A DNA stretch of 64,000 nt from Malachius bipustulatus (Eukaryota > Arthropoda > Insecta > Coleoptera > Melyridae), in the NCBI GenBank assembly GCA_910589415.1, contig OU342632.1:16061507-16125506 (forward strand). The letters run 5' to 3'. Shown here one piece after another: positions 3,139 to 64,000 of this stretch. Both the position numbers and the translations under genes were made by a program. Numbering within the stretch: the stretch's first letter is position 1; each line of letters starts with the position of its first letter. The notes below the pieces were generated by a model. That model did no database searches and was not told the origin of the DNA. It saw only the letters and a list, made by a program, of their open reading frames with translations.

Positions 3139-7796
<4,658 letters not shown>

Positions 7797-26424: not shown

Positions 26425-29195
26425 CAGGGTCCTGCAACAGTGCGTCCGTCTTTCCTAGCGCCTTTCCCGTGGTGGATAAAAAAAAATGTTTCCTACAAAA
26501 AAATATTGGTTTGGAAATCTTCATGCCATAACATTGTTTTACACTATAGGGTGTCCCATTTTTGAGGTATTCCAACAACAAACATTTTTTTAAATGGAAA
26601 GCCCTGTATTTATTCTATTTTTTCGATGTCCTTTTTTTACCATCTACATTGTTGTCTATTTATTATTTGATTATATTACAGTGTTGCCGACTTACAAATT
26701 TTTTCGCAAAATTCTTGTATAAAACAAGCTGAAATTTAAAAAATAGTAGCGACCCCGTTTTTCAGAAGGTAAAAATTATTCTTAGCAATAACTTCAGTGC
26801 GGTTACTAAGCAACATTGTGATAATGAGAAATATGAACTTTGTAAAATAGGATGTTCAGAAAAAAATGCCAAACTTTGCAAACTTCAAAGTAGTTCAACT
26901 ATTTTTTTTCAAATGGAATGCCCCTATTTTTATATCACCATTCGATAGGCCTCTTCTCTTCAATTTTATGGTGCATGTTGTATGTCTAAACCCCATAGTT
27001 ATTGACATGATCAATATTTTCCACAAAAGTTACCATTTAATTACATTTCTATGCACCGAAGTAGGCCGCAATGAAGCAAAACAACTGTCAAAATGTAAGT
27101 ATCCAAGTGTCAGTGTGAATTGAATTCTCTAAATTAATTGAATTTTTTCAAGCTGAAACTTGAAACGTTAAACACTTAAAAATAACTTCCGCTGTAAAAA
27201 ACTGTAAGAAAACTAGCAAGCTAAAAATTGTTCTACTCTTATCAGTGGCTGTTCCGTGAATGTCCGAGATTGAAATTTGCTGCAAAAGTCTCTCCGTTTC
27301 GTGGTATAAGTAGACTGCAACTTTTCATCATGAATTTCGAAAAAAACGAACTAGTAGATATGGTTTCTGTATTAGGCGAGGCTGATCAAAATTGTTTATT
27401 GGCGGAAAGGATTTACGCGATACGTTATCCAGAAAGAAGACACCCAAGTAAAAAAAGTTTCAGGAAGCTATTCGATAGATTTAATGAGACGGGAAGTGTG
27501 AAATACAAAAAACAAGAAAGAACAAAACTTATCACCAACGAGGAAAACGAATTGTCAGTGTTGTTAACAGCAACTGAGCATCCCAACATGAGCCAAAAAG
27601 ACATTGGTGAAGCAACCGGCATAACTGAGAGATCGGTACAACGCATTTTGAAGAAAAATCGATATCATGCGTACCATATTCAGTTGCATCAACAACTTAC
27701 CAATGCTGATTTTCAATTTCGTTCCAGATTTTGTGCCTGGGCAAGATTGAAAATACACCAAGATCCTGCATTTTTCAATTACGTTTTATTTACAGATGAG
27801 GCGACATTTAAAAACAGCGGATCAGTAAACAGGCACAATTTTCATGTCTATTCAACTGAAAATCCTCATGTTATGAGACAAATTGACAATCAGCATAGAT
27901 GAGATGGTCTTTGAATGTCTGGGGTGGAATTGTTGGAGGGTATGTGTTAGGTCCACATTTCTTCGATGGTCCTCTCAATGGGGCCATGTACTTGAACTTT
28001 TTGCAAAATGTTTTACCCGGACTATTAGTTAACGTGCCTCAACACATAAGAAACATAATGTGGTATCAACAAGACGGGGCACCTGCGCATTTTTCGCGAA
28101 ACGTCAGGGTATATCTTGATGGTATTTTCCCCAACCAGTGGATTGGTAGGAATGGACCCATCAGATGGCCTGCTAGATCTCCGGATCTGACAACAATGGA
28201 TTTTTTTTGTGGGGATACGTGAAGGGAATTGTTTTTAACGAACCGCCGACGACACTAATCAATATGCAACAAAGAATTGTGGAAGCTTTTGCAAGCATTT
28301 CACCTGAAATGCTAGGAAGAGTGCAAAGGTCTTTTCAGCAGAGAATTGATTTGTGCCTGAATGAAAATGGGAGACATTTTGAACATTTATTATAATAGTT
28401 TTTCATTTGTATGTTCAATTTTGTTACATTTGCATGTTTTTGAATGAAATAATTAATCATTTTTACATATTGTATTATCGGTTTTTATTCCTATCTTCAT
28501 TAGATGTCACATTGACACTTGGATACTTACATTTTGACAGTTGTTTTGCTATTGCGGCCTACTTCGGTGCATAGAAATGTAATTAAATGGTAACTTTTGT
28601 GGAAAATATTGATCATGTCAATAACTGTGGGGTTAGACATACAACATGCACCATAAAATTGAAGAGAAGAAAAAGGCCTATCGAATGGTGATATAAAAAT
28701 AGGGGCATTCCATTTGAAAAAAAATAGTTGAACTACTTAGAAGTTTGCAAAGTTTGGCATTTTTTTCTGAACACCCTATTTTACAAAGTTCATATTTCTC
28801 ATTATCACAATGTTGCTTAGTAACCGCACTGAAGTTATTGCTAAGAATAATTTTTACCTTCTGAAAAACGGGGTCGCTACTATTTTTTAAACTTCAGCTT
28901 GTTTTATACAAGAATTTTGGGAAAAAATTTGTAAGTCGGCAACACTGTAATATAATCAAATAATAAATAGACAACAATGTAGATGATAAAAAATGACATC
29001 GAAAAAATAGAATAAATACAGGGCATTTAAAAAAATGTTTGTTGTTGGAATACTCAAAAATGGGACACCTGTATAGTGTAAAACAATTTTATGGCATGAA
29101 GATTTCCAAACCAATAATTTTTTGTAGGAAACATTTTTTTTTATCCACCACGGGAAAGGCGCTAGGAAAGACGGACGCACTGTTGCAGGACCCTG
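26425..29195 (+). mobile_element. Tc1/mariner-superfamily transposon with about 690-bp inverted repeats
   Basis: The left end is TA-CAGGGTCCTGCAACAG (element start 26425) and the right end CTGTTGCAGGACCCTG-TA (ends 29195). The TIRs run inward to about 27118 and from about 28505, roughly 690 bp each and largely identical, with small indels. The TA target duplication and CAGGG ends fit the superfamily. The single transposase gene lies between the arms. The flanks 25500-26424 and 29196-29496 show no gene. Confidence 0.93.
27330..28395 (+). pseudogene. Decayed DDE transposase (HTH plus DDE_3 type)
   Basis: The ATG at 27330 lies between the TIRs. An N-terminal helix-turn-helix part (about 27340-27660; ERIYAIRYPERRHPSKKS, MSQKDIGEATGITERSVQRI) is followed by the catalytic core: FTDEATF (first Asp), IMWYQQDGAPAHFS (second Asp), RSPDLTTMDFF (third). 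Two breaks are visible: a 5-bp AGATG duplication at about 27897-27906 that ends the first frame at TGA 27900-27902, and one T missing from the T run at 28201-28208, where the frame then reads on as LWGYVKG. The element is therefore not autonomous in this copy. The family is common in insect genomes. Confidence 0.9.
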
Positions 29196-30325: not shown

Positions 30326-42518
<12,193 letters not shown>

Positions 42519-53100: not shown

Positions 53101-56100
53101 GGATTTTTAAATTTAAAAATCAAAAAAATTGGCAAAATTTTACAATTTTGTCCCTTTTCCTATGCCCGCCACTGGCTAACTTTACTTGAAAAATACTATT
53201 TTTTACACTACCTTTAATAAATTCGGAAAAAACTGAAAGGAGAGTTTTGAAAACCGAAAGTTTGAAATTTTAGAGGAATAAACATCATTTAAAAATATTC
53301 GAATATATCTCCGCCATTTTTATATTTGCTTCTTGAAATTTTTGAAGGTTAAATGCTATTAGTATAGTTGTCTACTATCAAAATTTCCGTTCTATTCCTT
53401 CAAAAATAAGCTCATGAATGTTTAGAAATGTAGACATTTTTACCCTTTTCCTACCCACGCCTCTGGCTTATTAATAGAAATGATGCAAATTGTATTGCAT
53501 TAGCTCAAATTTCAAATAAGTTTATTCCAATCTTGTTAATTTTGTTTAAAAGTTTTTGATCTTGCCTATTTAGGGGTTCAAAATCTAGCCATTTTCCAAA
53601 AATTGAAAAGGCCGCCATTTTGGAATGTCTTTACCTATTTTACTCAAATACAGTACCAGACGACTACTTGAGGGTATCTTACTACCAAAAAAATTTCAGC
53701 GCTCTAGATTGAAAACTTCGACCAGAAACCGTGCCTCACGGACGGTTTTTTTTCTGAAATTCGGAGGGACATCCTGTAGAAGTAACACAACTCTAGGAAA
53801 ATGTTTTTTACGAAAATCAAACGTCAGCCCTAAGGTTTATAAGAGTAAAAAATTTCGTTCATTAATCTTGAAAGATGAAGCTACAGGAGCGTTTTTAAAA
53901 ATTTAGAGAAATTAATTTAAAAAAAACATCATGTAAAAAAAAATCGAATATCTCCGCCATTTTTCTTATTTACTTTTTGAAATTCTCAAGGGTTGAAGTC
54001 TATTAGTATAGTTGTCTACTGTAAAAATTTCAGTTTAATTACTTCAAAAATGTGCTCATAAATTGTTGGAGAAATTTAGCCATTTTTACCCTTTTCCTAC
54101 CCACGCCACTGGCTTATTAATAGGAAAAATGCAAATTTTGTTGCATGAAATTAAATTTCAAGTCATTTACTTCCAATATTGTGAATTTGATATAAAACTC
54201 TTTTTCTATCTAGCTTATACAGGGGTTCAAAAAATAGTCCTTTTTCCAAAAATTAAAATGGCCGCCATTTTGAAACGGCTCGGCCGATTTTGCTCAAGTG
54301 CAATACCAGACCACTCCTTGTGGATATCTTACTCCCACAAAAATTTCAGCCTCCTAGATTCAAAACTGCGACCTGAAATGAGATGACAAAAACCGGATAC
54401 CTGGAATTTTGAAGGGACACCCTGTAGAAGTGATGGGACTTTTGGAAAGTTTTTCAACGAAAATCCAACGTCATTCCCAAATTTTACAAGGACCCAAAAT
54501 TTCGTTCACTAATCTTAAAAGATAAAGCCACAGGAGCGTTTTTAAAATCGAAATTTCGCGATTTTGGAGAAATATATATATAAATATATATATAAATATA
54601 TATATAAATATATATATAAATATATATATATATATCGTGGGCAGGTGAATTTTGGAAAACCACTTTTTCGTAATCTGGGGGTCATGATCGGTGGACATTT
54701 GATGAGTTTGGGTGATTTTTGGAAAGTGATGTCGTCCTCAATAGTGTATTTTTTTGTTAAAAAATACACTAAAAATTTATAAGAATTCAAGTAGGTACAG
54801 GATCGCCATTAATGGCCATAATTTAACATTGTTTTGGACTATTTCTTTAATGGAATGCTCTTTCTGAAGAAAAAAATACTCGGGTGAAGTTAGCAACGGG
54901 AGTGGCTAAGCATCCGGCTCCGGTACGATGATAATTTAATTACATTAATCTTGAACGACAATGAAATGCCATTTCATGAAGTTGCATGTAAAAATAAAAA
55001 ATCCTAGCAACTCATAATGGGCAGTTCTTGTAATCCAAGATCATTTTTACAGCTGGAAATCTGAAATTCCAAATTCATGATGGCGGTATTGTTCTGGGCC
55101 CGGAGAAAACAAGCTTTCACAACGGACGGACGGCGTTAATTTGTCTCCTTCGTTTGGAAAAATAAAAACTCCGCCAACGCATTAAGGGCAGTTTTTATAG
55201 CCGAAAATCGAAAATTACCACACCTGAATATGCGGATTCGGAATTTCCAAAAATCGTGGCGGCCGTTTTGGACCCGGACGAGTTTTCACGAAGGCATGAA
55301 GGGTTGATCTTTTTCCTTGGTTTTGAAAAATAAAAACCCCAGCAACGCATCAAGGGCAGTTTTTATAGCCGAAAATCGAAAATTACAACACCCTGCAATA
55401 TGCGGATTCGGAATTTCAAAAAATCATGGCGGCCGTTTTGGGCCCGCACAAGACGAGTTTTCACAAGGGTATGATATAGGGTTGATATATTTCCTTGATT
55501 TGGAAAAATAAAAACGCCAGCAACGCATCAAGGGCAGTTTTTATAGCCGAAAATCGAAAATTACAACACCTGCAATATGCGGATTCGGAATTTCAAAAAA
55601 TCATGGCGGCCGTTTTGGGCCCGGAAAAGAGGAGTTTTCACGCGGGTATGATAGGGTTGATCTTTATCTTTGGTTTAGAAAAATAAAAACCCCAGCAACG
55701 CATCAAGGGCAATTTTTATAGCCGAAAATCGAAAATTACAACACCTGAATATGCCGATTTGGAATTAAAAAAAATCATGGCGGCCGTTTTGGGCCCGCAC
55801 AAGACGAGTTTTCACAAGGGTATGATAGGGTTGATCTATTTCCTTGATTTGGAAAAATAAAAACCCCAGCAACGCATCAAGGGCAGAGTTTTTATAGCCG
55901 AAAGTCGAAAATTACAACACCTGAATATGCGGATTCGGAATTTTAAAAAATCATGGCGGCCGTTTTGGGCCCGGACAAGACGAGTTTTTCACGCGGGTAT
56001 GATAGGGTTGATCTTTATCCTTGCATGGTTTAGAAAAATTAAAACCCCAGCAATGCATCAAGGGCAGTTTTTATAGCCGAAAATCGAAAATTAAAACACC

Positions 56101-58227
56101 TGAATACTCGGATTCGGAATTTCAAAAAATCATGGCGGCCGTTTTGGGCCCGGAAAAGACGAGTTTTCACGTGGGTATGATGGGGTTGATCTTTATCTTT
56201 GGTCTAGAAAAATTAAAAAAAAATTTAGTGCCTTGAGAACTTCGAAATTAAACTTTGATATTTTAACTCTGTACAGTAAAAAATAATTATTAAATTATAG
56301 CCATTGTGACCCTGTACTTTAATTTGCATTTTTTTTATTCATCGTTTGGCCCACAGAGACCGACTCATCGAATGAGTTGGGACACCCTGCATCATCTTAA
56401 ATTTTTTAAAGAAATATTAATATAAGGAATTCCCCTTTATTCCTTAAAAAAGTTGAATATGAAATTTATACCTTATAATTATTATCGATCAACATAATTT
56501 ATAAAGGCAATTTTATGAAAATTAATTCAATTTTAAAATTTCACTGCAAAAACAAATATCAACAATATACTGCTGCATCCATTTCAATTTTTCAAGTTAA
56601 AACTATTAAAACTCTTTGCCAGAGTCTTTAACAATAGAAGGAAATAATTTATGGATTGTTGTTTTAACTTGTTTTTGAAGTACAAAGTCCTTTCTTAATT
56701 GGCCAATGAGGTAGGTAATTTCGAATATTCACACAGGCAAATTGTCTGTGTTCAACAGCTTTGGTAACTACTCTGAATTGCAAGGGATTTTTTTTAAAGC
56801 AGCAGACTGACAATTTTTTCGAAACCGCGATAACTTTTTCGAACTAAATAAACCTTTTTTATTCTAAAGACGCCGATTATTTTGTTCAAAATTATTAATA
56901 AAAAAGTATGGCGGTACTTTATAATTTTCTTAGTTCCCAAAAATTAACTGGATCGCTTTTGCATTGTTATACACAGTTTGTATGGTTCATCAAAAAATTT
57001 AAAAAATTCATATGTCTGTTTAATTTTTTTATCAAAAAGTTTTGTTATTGCTCTTAATACGTCGAATTTTTTAAGGTCTCCAAATATTAATATTATACCA
57101 CGATATGCAAAATATTTATCCGATAATGGTATCGAAGGAATTTTGGGTAAGATTGTTGAATTTATTTGAATCTCCTCTTTCCTCTTGTATTAATAATAAA
57201 TACAATGCACCCATCAGTAAATGGCACTTCTGGAGAAGGCATGTCTTTAAGTCTTTCTGAAAGAAAACAAACAGCAGAAACATGGGTCGAAGCGGTAAAA
57301 TCAACAAAGCAGCATTTAATGGTTCAGATTGGAGGTTGTCCCTTACCAGACGTTCTTGAACTGGTTTGTTTTAATAATAAATTGGATATTTTTCCTTTAA
57401 ATTAAGATTCTTTTAGGCAAAACATGCTGAAGATATCGGTGTTGCTTCACTTCTTTGCTTACCCGAGCTGTATTTTAAACCAGCAAATTCTGCGGAATTA
57501 ATAGAATATTTGAAATTAGTTGGATCTAAAGCTCCCAAGACTCCACTACTTTATTATCACATACCCAGCTTTACTAATGTGAACAGTGAGTTGCAATAAC
57601 TCTATCAAATAGAAATAATTTTATCTAATTTTTTTTTTAGTTCACATGGGTACATTTTTAAATGAAGCAATAGGAAAAATACCAACTTTTTGTGGTATAA
57701 AATTCACATCAACTTTGCTAGATGAAGGCGTTGAAGCGATTAGAGCAAATAATGGGAAATTTGCAGTTTTTCTTGGTGCGGATCAGGTACATATAAGTAT
57801 GTGAAAAATAAGTTTTTATTTTTTTCAACGGAATATCTCCGTAGATAATGGCCGGAGCTTATGCTCTTGGTTTTGACTCGGTGATAGCCACATCACTGAA
57901 CATATTTCCAAAGATTAATATTGAGATCAAAAAGTATGTTGAATCATGTGATTTGCAAAAAGCCAAAGAATCGCAGAACAAGTTGAATGACGCTATTTCG
58001 ATTATCACAAAAAATGGTAATAATGAGCTTTATTATATTTTGATGGGTCTGTTTTATTTGATATTTCAATTAATTATTTAGGTAAATGGGTTCCAACAAT
58101 GAAAACGGCTATGAATTTGCTAACACCATTGAATGTCGGAGTTGTTCGAAAACCGCTCACAGGACTCAAAGAAGATCAAATATCCGAAATGAAAAGTGGC
58201 CTGGAAAATTTGTACATGAGCATATGA
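50135..58227 (+). CDS. NPL: N-acetylneuraminate lyase (sialic acid aldolase)
   Basis: Class I aldolase of the DHDPS/NAL family: cleaves N-acetylneuraminate to N-acetylmannosamine and pyruvate in the cytosol. Eight exons join in phase: 50135-50137 (only the ATG), 50266-50324, 57076-57146, 57218-57363, 57417-57585, 57641-57786, 57845-58016, 58082-58227; 303 residues (human 320). Seen: FRGLMAPTFTAF at the N-terminus, VNGTSGEGMSLSLSER (carboxylate-binding GT.GE at 47-51), YYHIPSFTNVN (Tyr139/140), and GIKFT with the Schiff-base Lys170. The C-terminal helices are complete. Intron 2 is 6.75 kb and holds a large repeat complex; the other introns are 51-128 bp. AATAAA occurs at 58246-58251 and 58259-58264. 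Confidence 0.92.
52675..52772. repeat. TATATAAA microsatellite, unit 1
   Basis: About 100 bp of alternating TATATATA and TATAAATA. It sits near the end of the first 1.9-kb unit and explains the Tyr/Ile-rich false ORFs. Confidence 0.95.
54572..54634. repeat. TATATAAA microsatellite, unit 2
   Basis: Shorter version (about 63 bp) of the same microsatellite at the equivalent place in the second unit; the length difference reflects slippage. Confidence 0.95.
54985..56215. repeat. Tandem array, period 170-179 bp, seven copies
   Basis: The marker ATGGCGGCCGTTTTGGGCCC, or its variants, falls at 55080, 55258, 55428, 55605, 55779, 55955 and 56134. Each copy also has AGCAACGCATCAAGGGCAG and GCCGAAAATCGAAAATTA. 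The first copies are the most diverged. The open frames are repetitive and not a gene. Confidence 0.92.
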
Positions 58228-58371
58228 AAAGATCTGATTTATTATAATAAATATTTTAAATAAATTTGTTGATTATAATATTTTGCAATGAAGCACTAAT
58301 AAATTTCACTGATGAAGACAAAATAATTGAAAAAATATATGTAAATAAGAATGTAAATAAGAACAACTATA

Positions 58372-59273
58372 CAGGGTATCCGGGAAAATGTGAGAAATCT
58401 CTCGGAATCAGATAGAACTTTAAGAAGATGACAAGTTCCCATATTTTTTTTTCCTAGCGGCCCTCCCTAAGGAGATAATGCCTCCTAAAGGACGCCACTG
58501 GAAATCAATTTTTCTTGAATAACTTTTAAACTACTTGATTAAATTTAATGGAAATTTAAAATAATAAACATTAGTAAGGACCTCTCAAAATACTGCCCCT
58601 AAAACATAAATTAGCTTGTTTAGTTTACCAGGGGCGGACTAGGTTGTACATTTTAATGCTTACATTTTTAACACCCTGCATGATAAGGAGTTAAAAAAAA
58701 TTAGATACCTTGAACATTAAGCTACAGAAAAGGTACCTACTCTTGTTCCTTGTCGATAAAATGAACCGTTTTCGAGAAAAAAATAAATAAAAGAATTAAT
58801 GTTTTATTTCATAATCAATAAAAATTTCATAAGTGGGTTCAACAATCGTAGTTCTAGTACAATGTAATAGAAATGAAACATTAATTCTTTTATTATTTTT
58901 TCTCGAAAACGGTTCATTTTATCGACAAAGAACAAGAGTACCTTTTCTGTAGCTTAATGTTCAACGTATCCAAATTTGTTTTTTTTACTCCTTATCATAC
59001 AGGGTGTTAAAAATGTAAGCATTAAAATGTACAACCTAGTCCGCCCCTGGTAAACTATAAATAAGCTAATTTATGTTTTAGGGGCAGTATTTTAAGAGGT
59101 CCTTGCTAATGTTTAAATTTAAAATTTTCATTAAATTTAATCAAGTATGTAGTTTAAAAGTTATTCAAGAAAAATTGATTTCCAGTGGCGTCCTTTAGGA
59201 GGCCGTATCTCCGTAGGGAGGGCCGCTAGGAATCTGATTCCGAGAGATTTCCCACATTTTCCCGCACACCCTG
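58372..59273. mobile_element. Non-autonomous Tc1/mariner-type element with about 440-bp arms
   Basis: Left end TA-CAGGGTATCCGGGAAAATG; right end CATTTTCCCGCACACCCTG-TA. The arms reach about 58812 and start again at about 58872, so the element is nearly one hairpin. Shared inverted blocks include CGAAAACGGTTCATTTTATC, AGTCCGCCCCTGG and TCCAGTGGCGTCCTTTAGGA. There is no ORF. It lies 145 bp downstream of NPL. Confidence 0.92.
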
Positions 59274-61890
59274 TATACGGATGATTTAAAAATTGAATTA
59301 CATATTCAGCTATTGACAAAGAGGAGACTTTTTTTCAGTAAAGTGCAAGGATTTTTTAAATAAAATCACCAAAGCTAACAGGATAAAAGTTACTTCTAAA
59401 AGTCTTTAGAGCACTTATAGCTGGTTGACATTATGGCTCCAGATAAATTCCCAGAAACTGATGGGGCAGGTTTGTTTGATAAAGAATCCAAAAATGGTTA
59501 TGAATGAATCACACAAATTTCCAGGAAGAAATGATGAGCCATTTTCAAGAAGATTATAAAAAAATAGACAAAATAAACCGCAGCTTTGAAAGGTTCTCTT
59601 TAATTTAACGCAAAAATCTGGACAAAAAAATAAATTTCGAAATTTTTTCACAGCTAAGTCGGCTTTGAAAATTTTTAAATTAAATATCAGATTGATAGCT
59701 CATGACGACATATTATAGGTATGTAAAACAACAAAAAATTATTTATTTATTTTTGATAAAAAAAGAAATTATTAAAAAAGATACCTCGATTTTTCAGCAA
59801 ATTTCAGCAAAATGAGCAAAAAAATTATCCTAAATTTTGTAGGTATCAGATTCTTAATAAGTAGAAAATTGTGCACCTTCTCTCAAATTTAACCGAGTCT
59901 ATCTCTGCTAGTTTTATAAAGATTCCCATATCCAATGGTCAGAGAAAGAAAAAATAAAGACCTGTTGTAATAGATATAACAGGGTGGTCCAAATTTTATC
60001 TTTGAAAATGTTGATTTCTCTTGTAATTTCGGACAGAAAAATTATTAAAAATATGATCTAAGAATAATTCTAAGATGAGCTTCGAGAAATAAACAATAAG
60101 GTTTCAAATATTTTATTTTGAATTAAGAAATGAAATTTTCAATATTAGAAAAAAGAATAGTAAGTTTTAGAAGAAGAAGAAAGAATTATTATTATAAAGA
60201 CTTTACTGAAAATTTGGAAGATAATGAAATATTAAAATAATAAAATAAATAAAAGTAATGCAAATGTATGACAGCTGAGAGGAGACAGTGCCCTGAATAC
60301 AATAAATTGACCAATAATTTCACTTGAAACAAAGAATACTTCAAAAACAGCTCTTGCTAAAAAAAATAAGGTAGGCATGCACCACACCTGTTTTGAACAA
60401 AATTGTAGCATCAGAATAATCAGAATTTTATATTTTCAGTCAGTGGCGCGTAGTGATTTTTATTTAAAAAAAGCGTAATAAACACATACTTAAGGCATAA
60501 ATTTTCGTAACTCGTTTAAATACCTAACTCATCACTGGAAGTAATAAGAGAGCCCATTTAGCATTAATACTTTGAGATTTTTTGAATTTTAACCCGATTG
60601 GCCTATCACCGAATGTATATATAATAAAATAAACTGTATATTCTAAAAAAGGTTAACACACGAACACACCGCATGTTATCCCAAAAACCGAAGCTCTGAG
60701 AACATACTACTAATCTTCTAATCAAAAAGGTCTTCTATAAACTGGTAAAGTCCTGCTAGCAAAAAACTGATTTACCCTTTATAACGGAAATTTTGTTGCT
60801 GCCAATTTGAAAGCTTTAACATTCTGACAAGTTATGCTAATGTTTCGTTTACCTAGAGTTTCTCAGTTTCCTGCTCTGCTAAAGAATTTGTTAGACTTTC
60901 ATAGAGGAGAGATTATTAGAGTCTCAGATATGAGTGCTGTAAATTATACAGGAGATTTATTCCTGGACTAAAATAAAGTCAGAAACTCCTACTAACTATA
61001 TGTCCTTAAATGTATTGTTTTCAAGTTATAGAGGGTGTCACAATTTTATAAAAAAAATGTTTGTTTTGAATTTTGGAAACCGTTCAAGATATTTTGATGT
61101 CACTTGGTATAGTATATAGACACATGTAAAGTCGAGATACAGGGGCGTAAATACTGATGGGGAGTCGCCCCTTCTATCCCCCTTGTCTTCTACGCCACTT
61201 AATAAGTTTTCTAATTTGTAAGCGAAAAAACTTACTCTTGCAAAACTTTAGAAGCTGCGTTTTTGAGATATTGGGGTTAATATAATTGCCTTATGGATAA
61301 TCCGACCCTGATCACAAGTGTGGCCAAAACTAAATTTTATGTACACTAACAATAAAACATAGGTCATAATATAATATAGTAATAATAAGATAGAGGGATA
61401 AAATCATTATGCTCTCATATCATTCCTAGAATTCAATTAACACAAGCACGATAGCATGAACTTGTGTTTGTTGAATAATCCTAACATTATATTCTCTAAT
61501 AAGGTTTCTCATATAACATAATGTAATTTTATCAGTTGAACAGGAACTGCTAATATATTGAATTATGATTTATAATCTATAAATAAAACCTCTGTAACGG
61601 CATTTTTATATTTTACAGTGTTGAAAACATGAAACATGATATTACAATCTCAGTTCCTACATTTGTAATACATTAATAATAATAGGTATTAAGTATACCT
61701 ACATATTTTACTACTTTATTAAAAGTAGTGGCGTGTAAAACCCCGGTGAATCAACTTCAGCAAATTCATTTTTGTTCTGTAATTATGAATGTTAGGGCTC
61801 AATTTGATTAAAATATATTTCAAATAAAACATTCAAGAAAGCCAATTCAAATTTAATATCAATCGAACAAATAACATCTGTACGGTACAA
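59274..61890. other. Intergenic stretch, weak repeat traces only
   Basis: No gene was recognised. A CAGGGTGGTCC fragment near 59992 and CAGTGGCG/CGCCACT motifs near 60443 and 61190 suggest worn MITE ends. Confidence 0.4.
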
Positions 61891-61899
61891 CGTCCGTCA

Positions 61900-62370
61900 A
61901 TCAAGTCATCTCCTCTACGCATCTAGAGAATGGCCGACAGCCAAACTCGTATTGCACAATATTTCACAACAGTCCTAAAAATAACTCGACGAGTTCAGCC
62001 GCCGACGTGAAGTATAGGTGATTCCCCGTCCGCCAGGAAATCAACCAGCCAACGGCGTCATCTCCCCGCCTCAGCCATGATTTGCTTACGTATGAAGATT
62101 AGCAGTGGCGGTGTGAATTCAGAATTATTGTAATTTGTTTATTATTGTAGGTATTTTTATTTTTTATTGTATTTATATTAGTGTTACATATTGTCTTTGA
62201 TTTTGTCAGGAGCTGTTCTGACACGCCACTGACACCGGGTCGTCGACTCGCGTCGAGCCTACTTGGAAGTCTTGGGACACGATCCGGGCCGGGGAAAGCA
62301 GCACTAGCAGCAGGCAGAGCGAGCTCGACCGTGAAGCCGCGAAGTAGCAAAGTAGCCTGTGTCGTGTGTT
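61900..62370 (+). promoter_or_regulatory. GC-rich, CpG-containing island upstream of the viral-like ORF
   Basis: Two GC-richer blocks (about 61900-62095 and 62205-62370) stand out in an AT-rich region and end about 105 bp before the nucleocapsid-like ORF. They could be a promoter or 5' UTR. A pyrimidine-AG acceptor-like site (TTTGTTTAG, near 62445) lies between them and the ATG. No TATA box or start site could be assigned. Confidence 0.3.
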
Positions 62371-62475
62371 TCGCTTAACTTGGGATTCCCCGAATAACTA
62401 TTGTTTATTATTTATCCATTTATCAAATATAATAATTTGTTTAGTCAAGTGAAGTAATCTTGGTTTGGATCAACA

Positions 62476-63309
62476 ATGACTGAAAATTCTGATGAGATGC
62501 CAATAACAATGTCTGGTGAAGATATTCGAAGGTGGCTTTCAAATTTCCAAAGAGTGTGCATTGAAAACATGCCAGTGTTTCTTACTCCTGAATTCATAGC
62601 TACGCTCGCTTATCAAGGATTTGATCCAAAGAAGACCCTCTCAATTATAGAAGCTGTTGATGATCCCGAGAAAGATTCCAACATCCGCAAGATGATTGCC
62701 ACATTCTTAACTAAAGGAAACAAACTATCCTCTATAATGAAGAAGTCTTCTGCAGATGACAAAAATTTTCTAAAAAAGATGATCAATAAATACGGGCTGA
62801 TAGATAACACTGGACAGAAAGGACCCGACGCAGTGAGTTTGTCAAGAATTGCAGCTGCCTATCCTGCGTTAACGTTGCAACTAATTAATACAGACCCACA
62901 TATAAGAACCTCAAGACCAGTAAAAAGTACCGAGATGGAGACTTACTCTAAAAACTTTCCTCCTGTATTAATGACAACCATTGCAGCTTCGGTTATCCCC
63001 CAGAGTGACTGCTTAGCCGCAAGTGACAGAGAAGCGGTAATTAACACTATACTTTTGTACTGCATGCTTGAGACAAGAAAGCTTAATAAAACTAAGGCAA
63101 ATGATAACTGGCGTGAATTAAGTGCACACTGCTTGACATATGTTAATGCCTCTCATAATTCTTCTCTTCTAAATGAGACCCAAAGAAAGGAATTTTGCTC
63201 TTCTGAAACAATGGAGGATGTTTTCACTGCCACCCCTGAAAAATTAACTGTGAAGCCTGCTGTTCTCAATGCTTCCAAGGTTTATGAAAACTTGATCAAG
63301 TCTGTTTAA
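62476..63309 (+). CDS. Endogenous phenui-like bunyavirus nucleocapsid ORF (EVE)
   Basis: Uninterrupted ORF of 277 codons. It resembles the nucleocapsid (N) of phenui-like bunyaviruses, which coats viral RNA. Seen: LAYQGFDPKK at about residues 46-55, RKMIATFLTKGNK at about 75-87, MINKYGL, and LSRIAAAYPALTLQLI at about 121-136, in the order expected for the family, then a mostly helical C-terminal half. It is somewhat longer than typical phlebovirus N (about 245) and shorter than tenuivirus N. No stop or frameshift was seen. The ATG context (ATCAACAATGAC) is acceptable; an AATAAA follows at 63441-63446. It sits in host DNA beside transposons; no other viral gene is present. Whether it is expressed is unknown. 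Confidence 0.83.
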   Translation: MTENSDEMPITMSGEDIRRWLSNFQRVCIENMPVFLTPEFIATLAYQGFDPKKTLSIIEAVDDPEKDSNIRKMIATFLTKGNKLSSIMKKSSADDKNFLKKMINKYGLIDNTGQKGPDAVSLSRIAAAYPALTLQLINTDPHIRTSRPVKSTEMETYSKNFPPVLMTTIAASVIPQSDCLAASDREAVINTILLYCMLETRKLNKTKANDNWRELSAHCLTYVNASHNSSLLNETQRKEFCSSETMEDVFTATPEKLTVKPAVLNASKVYENLIKSV

Positions 63310-63440: not shown

Positions 63441-63446
63441 AATAAA
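63441..63446 (+). terminator. Polyadenylation signal after the viral-like ORF
   Basis: AATAAA 131 nt downstream of the stop codon; it would allow a host-type mRNA. The remaining bases to 64000 show no gene. Confidence 0.35.
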
Positions 63447-64000
63447 ATATTATATCTATACCTATAATAAGTATATCCCTTTTTATTGGCAAAGTAGGAG
63501 GCTATGTATGTTAGGGTAATGGAAATCACTCCGTATAAATAAATAATGTCATGCATTTATGGAAATTAGGTTAGGTCAAATTTCTCCTATCATGTCGATA
63601 AGCAGAACATAATATATAGTTGTCAGATCTTTTTTTGTTACTTTTGAACATATGTATTTGGCTTTCGATTTTGAAACATTTGGCCTCATATCTCATTTTA
63701 TGGTCGTTCAGTATTATGATATTAAAAATTTAATAATAAACATTATAATAAAGCAAACTAAAAAAAATAATAAGCACCTATAGAATAAGGGTTTTGATAA
63801 AAAGGATTAATTTATTTATTTATTAATGAAATATTAGAATAGTACAATATATGATATCATGGGCTAGCCAAGTTTGATGCAGGTTGTCGATTAAAAGAAG
63901 CAAGAAACTGATAACAATAATTATTTGGTTTGTATAAATATGTATAGGTATCACAAAAGCATCAAATTTCCCAGACACAGTCAATTCCACATTTTCGACT

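Follow-up and report, generated by a model that had tools for sequence, protein, structure and literature searches.

How does an intact gene resembling the nucleocapsid (N) gene of a phenui-like bunyavirus come to lie in animal DNA, and could it still make a protein there? The question is raised by an open reading frame (ORF) near the end of a 64,000-nucleotide stretch of contig OU342632.1, all of which was analysed and is referred to here as the window. We conclude that the locus is an endogenous viral element (EVE) derived from an N transcript of such a virus, because viral N homology and an intact ORF occur together in animal DNA with no other viral domain among the ORFs of at least 100 amino acids in the window. 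We put the probability that the element is an intact, potentially translated viral insertion at roughly 80%. The features on which this reading draws first are the following.

62476..63309, + strand: intact ORF whose product resembles a nucleocapsid and belongs to the Tenui_N family (N of a phenui-like bunyavirus), identified from the ORF list, Pfam, solved-structure matches and simulation.
62587..63201, + strand: Tenui_N domain, residues 38-242 of the product (Pfam PF05733, profile positions 20-220 of 224).
62611..62745, + strand: counterparts of RNA-cleft residues, Y46, K80, K83 and K90, together with D50 (D34 in Rift Valley fever virus, RVFV), from a phmmer alignment read by eye, with residue roles taken from PMC5764413 and PMC4027202.

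Is the reading frame real? A preliminary description of this DNA had reported 277 codons without a stop or frameshift, and the same frame is found here unbroken, with its ATG at 62476, its TAA at 63307-63309 and zero internal stops; the stop-free frame around it spans 62458-63309. As a control for chance ORFs, first-order Markov sequences of 64 kb each were generated and searched in six frames for their longest run without a stop. This never exceeded 179 codons in the 40 sequences built on the dinucleotides of the window, or 224 codons in the 40 built on those of the N-like ORF itself. Since the ORF is longer than any run in these 80 simulated sequences, it is not a chance ORF.

The viral origin of this ORF is almost certain. 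Its product matches the Pfam family Tenui_N, the nucleocapsid of tenuiviruses and phleboviruses, with an E value of 6.3e-33 and a score of 114.7 bits (cut-off 25), and this is the sole Pfam family found at E up to 1. The same threshold gives 13 distinct sequences among solved structures, every one labelled nucleoprotein, nucleocapsid or NP protein. The best of them, 3lyf, which we take to be the N protein of RVFV, aligns with residues 39-245 (E 4.8e-18, phmmer) at 28% identity (56 identical among 200 aligned residues, by a hand count along the midline), and the RVFV residue numbers used in the literature agree with its sequence letters. The entries 4j4w, 4j4x and 4csf, which show molecule names, are presumably also phlebovirus nucleoproteins. 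The profile score and these structures bear out the phenui-like bunyaviral origin proposed in the preliminary description; the possibility that the protein belongs to a conserved host family was also considered, and the matches found are viral. In a protein collection, 0 of 433 candidates matched at E up to 1e-3, and neither of two pattern matches in a scan of viral contigs was confirmed; these collections showed no sign of insect genes or phenuiviruses. Because the family is well known, the empty searches reflect collections that cover it sparsely, not the uniqueness of the N-like protein. A single-sequence AlphaFold2 model of the product reached a mean predicted local distance difference test score (pLDDT) of 35.3 and was not used, and the phlebovirus N fold of the product is predicted from its sequence.

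The DNA around the ORF is that of an animal, probably an insect. The Pfam scan covered all 24 window ORFs of at least 100 amino acids, up to the end of the window at base 64000, and the other families above the cut-off were HIT together with DcpS_C (in one ORF), RNase H, PNKP domains, DUF4817, a bromodomain and Smad MH2. To our knowledge MH2 domains are specific to animals, so the surrounding DNA is animal; base composition and the types of element present point to an insect. The viral gene is contiguous with this DNA, in that animal genes (HIT, PNKP, bromodomain, Smad MH2 and a DHDPS-like gene) lie in the same 64-kb window, and its location in a host chromosome, as claimed earlier, is thereby upheld. 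That viral sequence was joined to host DNA by faulty assembly is very improbable, both because the window holds 0 N bases and because an RNA virus yields no DNA for a DNA assembly unless it is reverse-transcribed, a line of reasoning also found in PMC4573495. Likewise, no second viral family, including L or glycoprotein, was detected among the 24 ORFs, and the absence of such companions noted in the preliminary description holds over this set. The same result bears on the possibility that the locus is a source of Piwi-interacting RNAs (piRNAs), its transcripts being processed into small RNAs by which Piwi proteins are directed to RNA of related viruses, with the open frame being incidental. 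This is rather unlikely, since there is no sign of an EVE cluster and since a small-RNA function would leave the long open frame unexplained, an argument made in PMC6166632.

Could the product still bind RNA? In phlebovirus N, roles in the RNA cleft are described for Y30, R64, K67 and K74 of RVFV (PMC5764413, PMC4027202), and Y32 and K79 of Toscana virus are given as the counterparts of RVFV Y30 and K74 (PMC4027202). In our alignment, read by eye, Y46, K83 and K90 of the N-like product are identical to RVFV Y30, K67 and K74, and R64 is replaced by K80. By the same alignment, D50 corresponds to RVFV D34 and an asparagine is present at the position of RVFV N181. Because the cleft residues are kept, an RNA-binding or antiviral role of the product is plausible.

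Whether a protein could be made depends on the DNA around the frame, where three features are relevant.

62095..62475, + strand: ATG-free stretch, candidate 5' leader (longest of 1121 ATG intervals).
61801..62400, no strand assigned: block rich in CpG, a candidate for the promoter or first exon, which may include transposon-derived DNA (from the ranking of CpG windows).
63441..63446, + strand: nearest AATAAA downstream of the ORF, a candidate for the poly(A) signal (pattern scan).

The 381 nucleotides directly before the start codon contain no ATG, which makes them the longest of the 1121 ATG intervals on the + strand; on the - strand, 4 of 1088 intervals are as long. Taking both strands together, 5 of 2211 ATGs are preceded by a run at least this long; the ORFs that begin at the remaining four have 3 to 36 codons, as against 277 here. 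Markov sequences of the same length and of local composition had a mean of 6.07 ATGs, with zero in 12 of 5000. The context of the start codon is ATCAACAATGA. The ATG-free stretch overlaps the CpG-rich block at 61801-62400, which has 37 CpG, an observed/expected (o/e) ratio of 1.29 and a tied second place among 634 windows of 600 bases; the top window and the other tied second both lie in a tandem array near 55 kb. Merging the 40 windows richest in CpG gives eight blocks, one of which lies beside the 5' end of the HIT gene (14.7-15.7 kb) and another at 37.3-38.9 kb. AATAAA is frequent by chance in such AT-rich DNA, and two more copies occur inside the N-like ORF. An intron in the 5' leader, with a donor at 62090 and an acceptor at 62210, is possible but unsupported. 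The ATG-free stretch and the CpG block fit a host promoter and leader, and thus a host-expressed mRNA, and the balance tips slightly towards the ORF being expressed in this way.

The same features, namely the candidate leader, the CpG block and the poly(A) signal, would also fit a Tenui_N-type protein that was fixed long ago in this animal lineage and has since become an ordinary host gene, driven by a promoter of its own. There is said to be precedent for this in the selectively maintained paleoviruses of water fleas (Ballinger et al. 2013), and Ballinger and Taylor reportedly described in 2019 a bunyavirus N gene that a host had acquired and expressed. The protein and viral-contig searches, in collections of the sparse coverage described above, returned no orthologue, and such long domestication is rather unlikely.

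Several observations weigh against the reading of the locus as an intact, potentially translated viral insertion. First, no clear trace of insertion was seen: no convincing target-site duplication was found (with 20 of 21 direct-repeat families listed), the repeat pairs flanking the ORF, such as 62408-62436 with 63812-63840 (79%), resemble chance matches in AT-rich DNA, and no run of A between the ORF and the end of the window exceeds 8 (at 63760). The phlebovirus segment end ACACAAAG occurs twice in the window, which is the level expected by chance, and away from the ORF. The marks of insertion by a long interspersed nuclear element (LINE), target-site duplication and poly(A), are often lost with age, and for this reason their absence is no bar to counting the locus among EVEs. 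Second, RVFV F149, which is described as essential for ribonucleoprotein (RNP) function, with an alanine mutant devoid of minigenome activity (PMC5764413), is not kept; by eye, it aligns to A170, with I169 adjacent. With alanine at this position, full N function of the product is doubtful. F149 is a functional residue and not a defining feature of Tenui_N, and family membership rests on the profile score. Third, the case for a leader and promoter has its own weaknesses. The ATG-free test was picked after the data had been viewed, and the ATG-free runs before the start codons of the HIT, PNKP and lyase-like (that is, DHDPS-like) genes are just 58-76 nucleotides long. Two of these three host genes, PNKP and lyase-like, have no strong CpG block near their start (the best CpG window within 600 bases ranks 118 and 136 of 634, respectively, and that of HIT 13), CpG-rich blocks at 43.7-44.5, 45.6-46.2 and 49.0-49.6 kb adjoin no recognised gene, and part of the block before the N-like ORF may be transposon-derived.

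Two further searches concerned repeats and transposon ends near the locus. Within the window, the 60-64 kb stretch gave the self match alone at E up to 1e-3, and a hAT-like pair of ends that we had read near 61729 and 62233 was dropped for want of a target duplication.

How long could such a frame have survived by chance? Depending on transition bias, 3.1-4.3% of random substitutions in the N-like ORF would create a stop, so that 0.019-0.027 substitutions per site would suffice for stops alone to break half of all unconstrained copies, and about 0.007 when indels are included (at an assumed 0.1 indels per substitution, of which 80% shift the frame). Because half of such copies would be broken by about 0.007-0.027 substitutions per site, the N-like copy is either young or retained. 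The preliminary description had posed this same alternative, recent or kept by selection; our neutral-survival calculation gives it figures and makes no choice between the two. A young N copy (about 0.02 substitutions per site or less), functionless and intact for lack of time, would look the way this one does, and we regard a recent neutral insertion as an even bet. The proposal is consistent with an arthropod survey in which most EVEs had disrupted frames (PMC4384744) and with the suggestion that many crustacean EVEs are recent (PMC4573495). It does not account for the start codon ending an unusually long ATG-free stretch, unless the copy landed by chance in a host leader. CpG content could also bear on age. 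The ORF (62476-63306) is CpG-poor, with an o/e of 0.48 and 15 CpG where synonymous shuffling gives 21.9 (a value as low in 9 of 1000 shuffles), and three host coding stretches, with o/e of 0.67-0.71, are less depleted. This depletion may reflect either host methylation or the make-up of the virus: it would suit time spent in methylated host DNA, at the expense of a recent insertion, and would suit viral composition equally well. We have set it aside as evidence of age, since viral composition could explain it. Overall, retention by selection is somewhat less than an even prospect.

The history of the insertion and, if it is translated, its action might be as follows. The N mRNA of a phenui-like bunyavirus would have been reverse-transcribed and inserted into the germline of the animal. 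The CpG-rich, ATG-free stretch would then serve as promoter and 5' leader, and the 277-residue protein would be made from the first AUG. The product, if expressed, would most likely act as a counterfeit N with non-specific RNA binding, which could mix into, or compete with, the RNP of related infecting viruses and thus damp their replication. A dominant-negative nucleocapsid would result if the product had lost the support of replication associated with F149 and still bound RNA. Antiviral action by the protein, argued from analogy, is nonetheless a tentative proposal that we consider unlikely. More doubtful still is the complete scheme, in which the N gene has turned into a regular host gene, with host promoter and ATG-free leader, encoding an RNA-binding dominant-negative nucleocapsid that blocks phenui-like viruses.

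The remainder of the window provides the setting of the N-like ORF, including a spliced host gene upstream of it.

57205..58227, + strand: spliced N-acetylneuraminate-lyase/DHDPS-like host gene, upstream of the N-like ORF (3 of 5 exon-sized pieces match PF00701).

One of the matching pieces scores above the cut-off and two below, and in our reading of the exons this DHDPS-like gene is an N-acetylneuraminate lyase. The N-like ORF begins 4.2 kb downstream of it. Between the two, at 58370-59280, lies a long foldback (inverted-repeat) element, recognised by eye. The Smad MH2 domain is in two pieces on the + strand, 3843-4157 and 7452-7793, the second below the cut-off, which are probably exons of one Smad gene. 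Among mobile sequences, we read the RNase H ORF as a piece of a retroelement, and a transposase-like gene at 27225-28222 (+ strand) consists of two overlapping ORFs, the first with the DUF4817 helix-turn-helix; by eye it is Tc1/mariner-like. A match to the type I hammerhead ribozyme at 41139-41182 (- strand; 35.6 bits, with the gathering score at 34) is possibly derived from a repeat element. The tandem array near 55 kb is a 355-bp repeat at 55146-56219, with about 3.1 copies and a 90% match, and the top CpG counts of the window are found within or next to it.

Work on antiviral immunity in invertebrates has mostly looked at small RNAs, and intact endogenous N genes are candidates for a form of it that acts through proteins. 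The present locus offers concrete handles for this question, namely a defined ORF, a candidate promoter, kept cleft residues and one unkept residue that supports RNP function in RVFV N. Should the insertion be no more than recent, it would be a record of a phenui-like virus entering the host germline not long ago. Bunyaviral N elements of arthropods are already known, intact and stop-free ones among them in ants, and this locus adds another. In our literature searches on endogenous bunyaviral N genes we recognised no paper as describing it, which carries little weight.

Compared with the N protein of RVFV and other phleboviruses, the product belongs to the same family by sequence, shares the motifs AYQGFD, KMI, GNK, INKY and LSR-AAA with 3lyf, and keeps the RNA-cleft residues, with R64 as lysine. 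It differs from 3lyf in having 16 extra residues before the core and in not keeping F149; unlike in phleboviruses, the gene is chromosomal, and the rest of the virus is absent from the ORFs scanned. Phlebovirus NP EVEs were reported in Ixodes scapularis in 2010 (PMC2987831) and phlebovirus-like N EVEs in Aedes aegypti, Anopheles and Lepeophtheirus salmonis in 2015 (PMC4384744), and bunyaviral nucleocapsid EVEs are described in isopods (PMC4573495). The Bunya-Arena nucleoprotein EVEs of ants, some of them stop-free and complete or almost so (Vollenhovia emeryi EVE17, 327/327, and EVE19, 326/327; Pseudomyrmex gracilis EVE45, 294/327), are, in the account given in PMC6540820, closest to Wuhan insect virus 16, whose N has 327 residues. 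Like them, the present element is a bunyaviral N gene without stops in what is probably an insect genome; judged by the published descriptions, it is set apart by its 277 residues and by having phleboviruses as its closest solved relatives. For the proposed action, the models are a counterfeit capsid of the yeast Debaryomyces hansenii and EBLN of ground squirrels, an endogenous N gene, both of which are described as blocking related viruses by means of a protein (PMC6166632, PMC10636211). These too are captured viral coat or N genes; they come from other virus families and hosts, and it is by analogy with them that the N-like product described here could act against its viral relatives.
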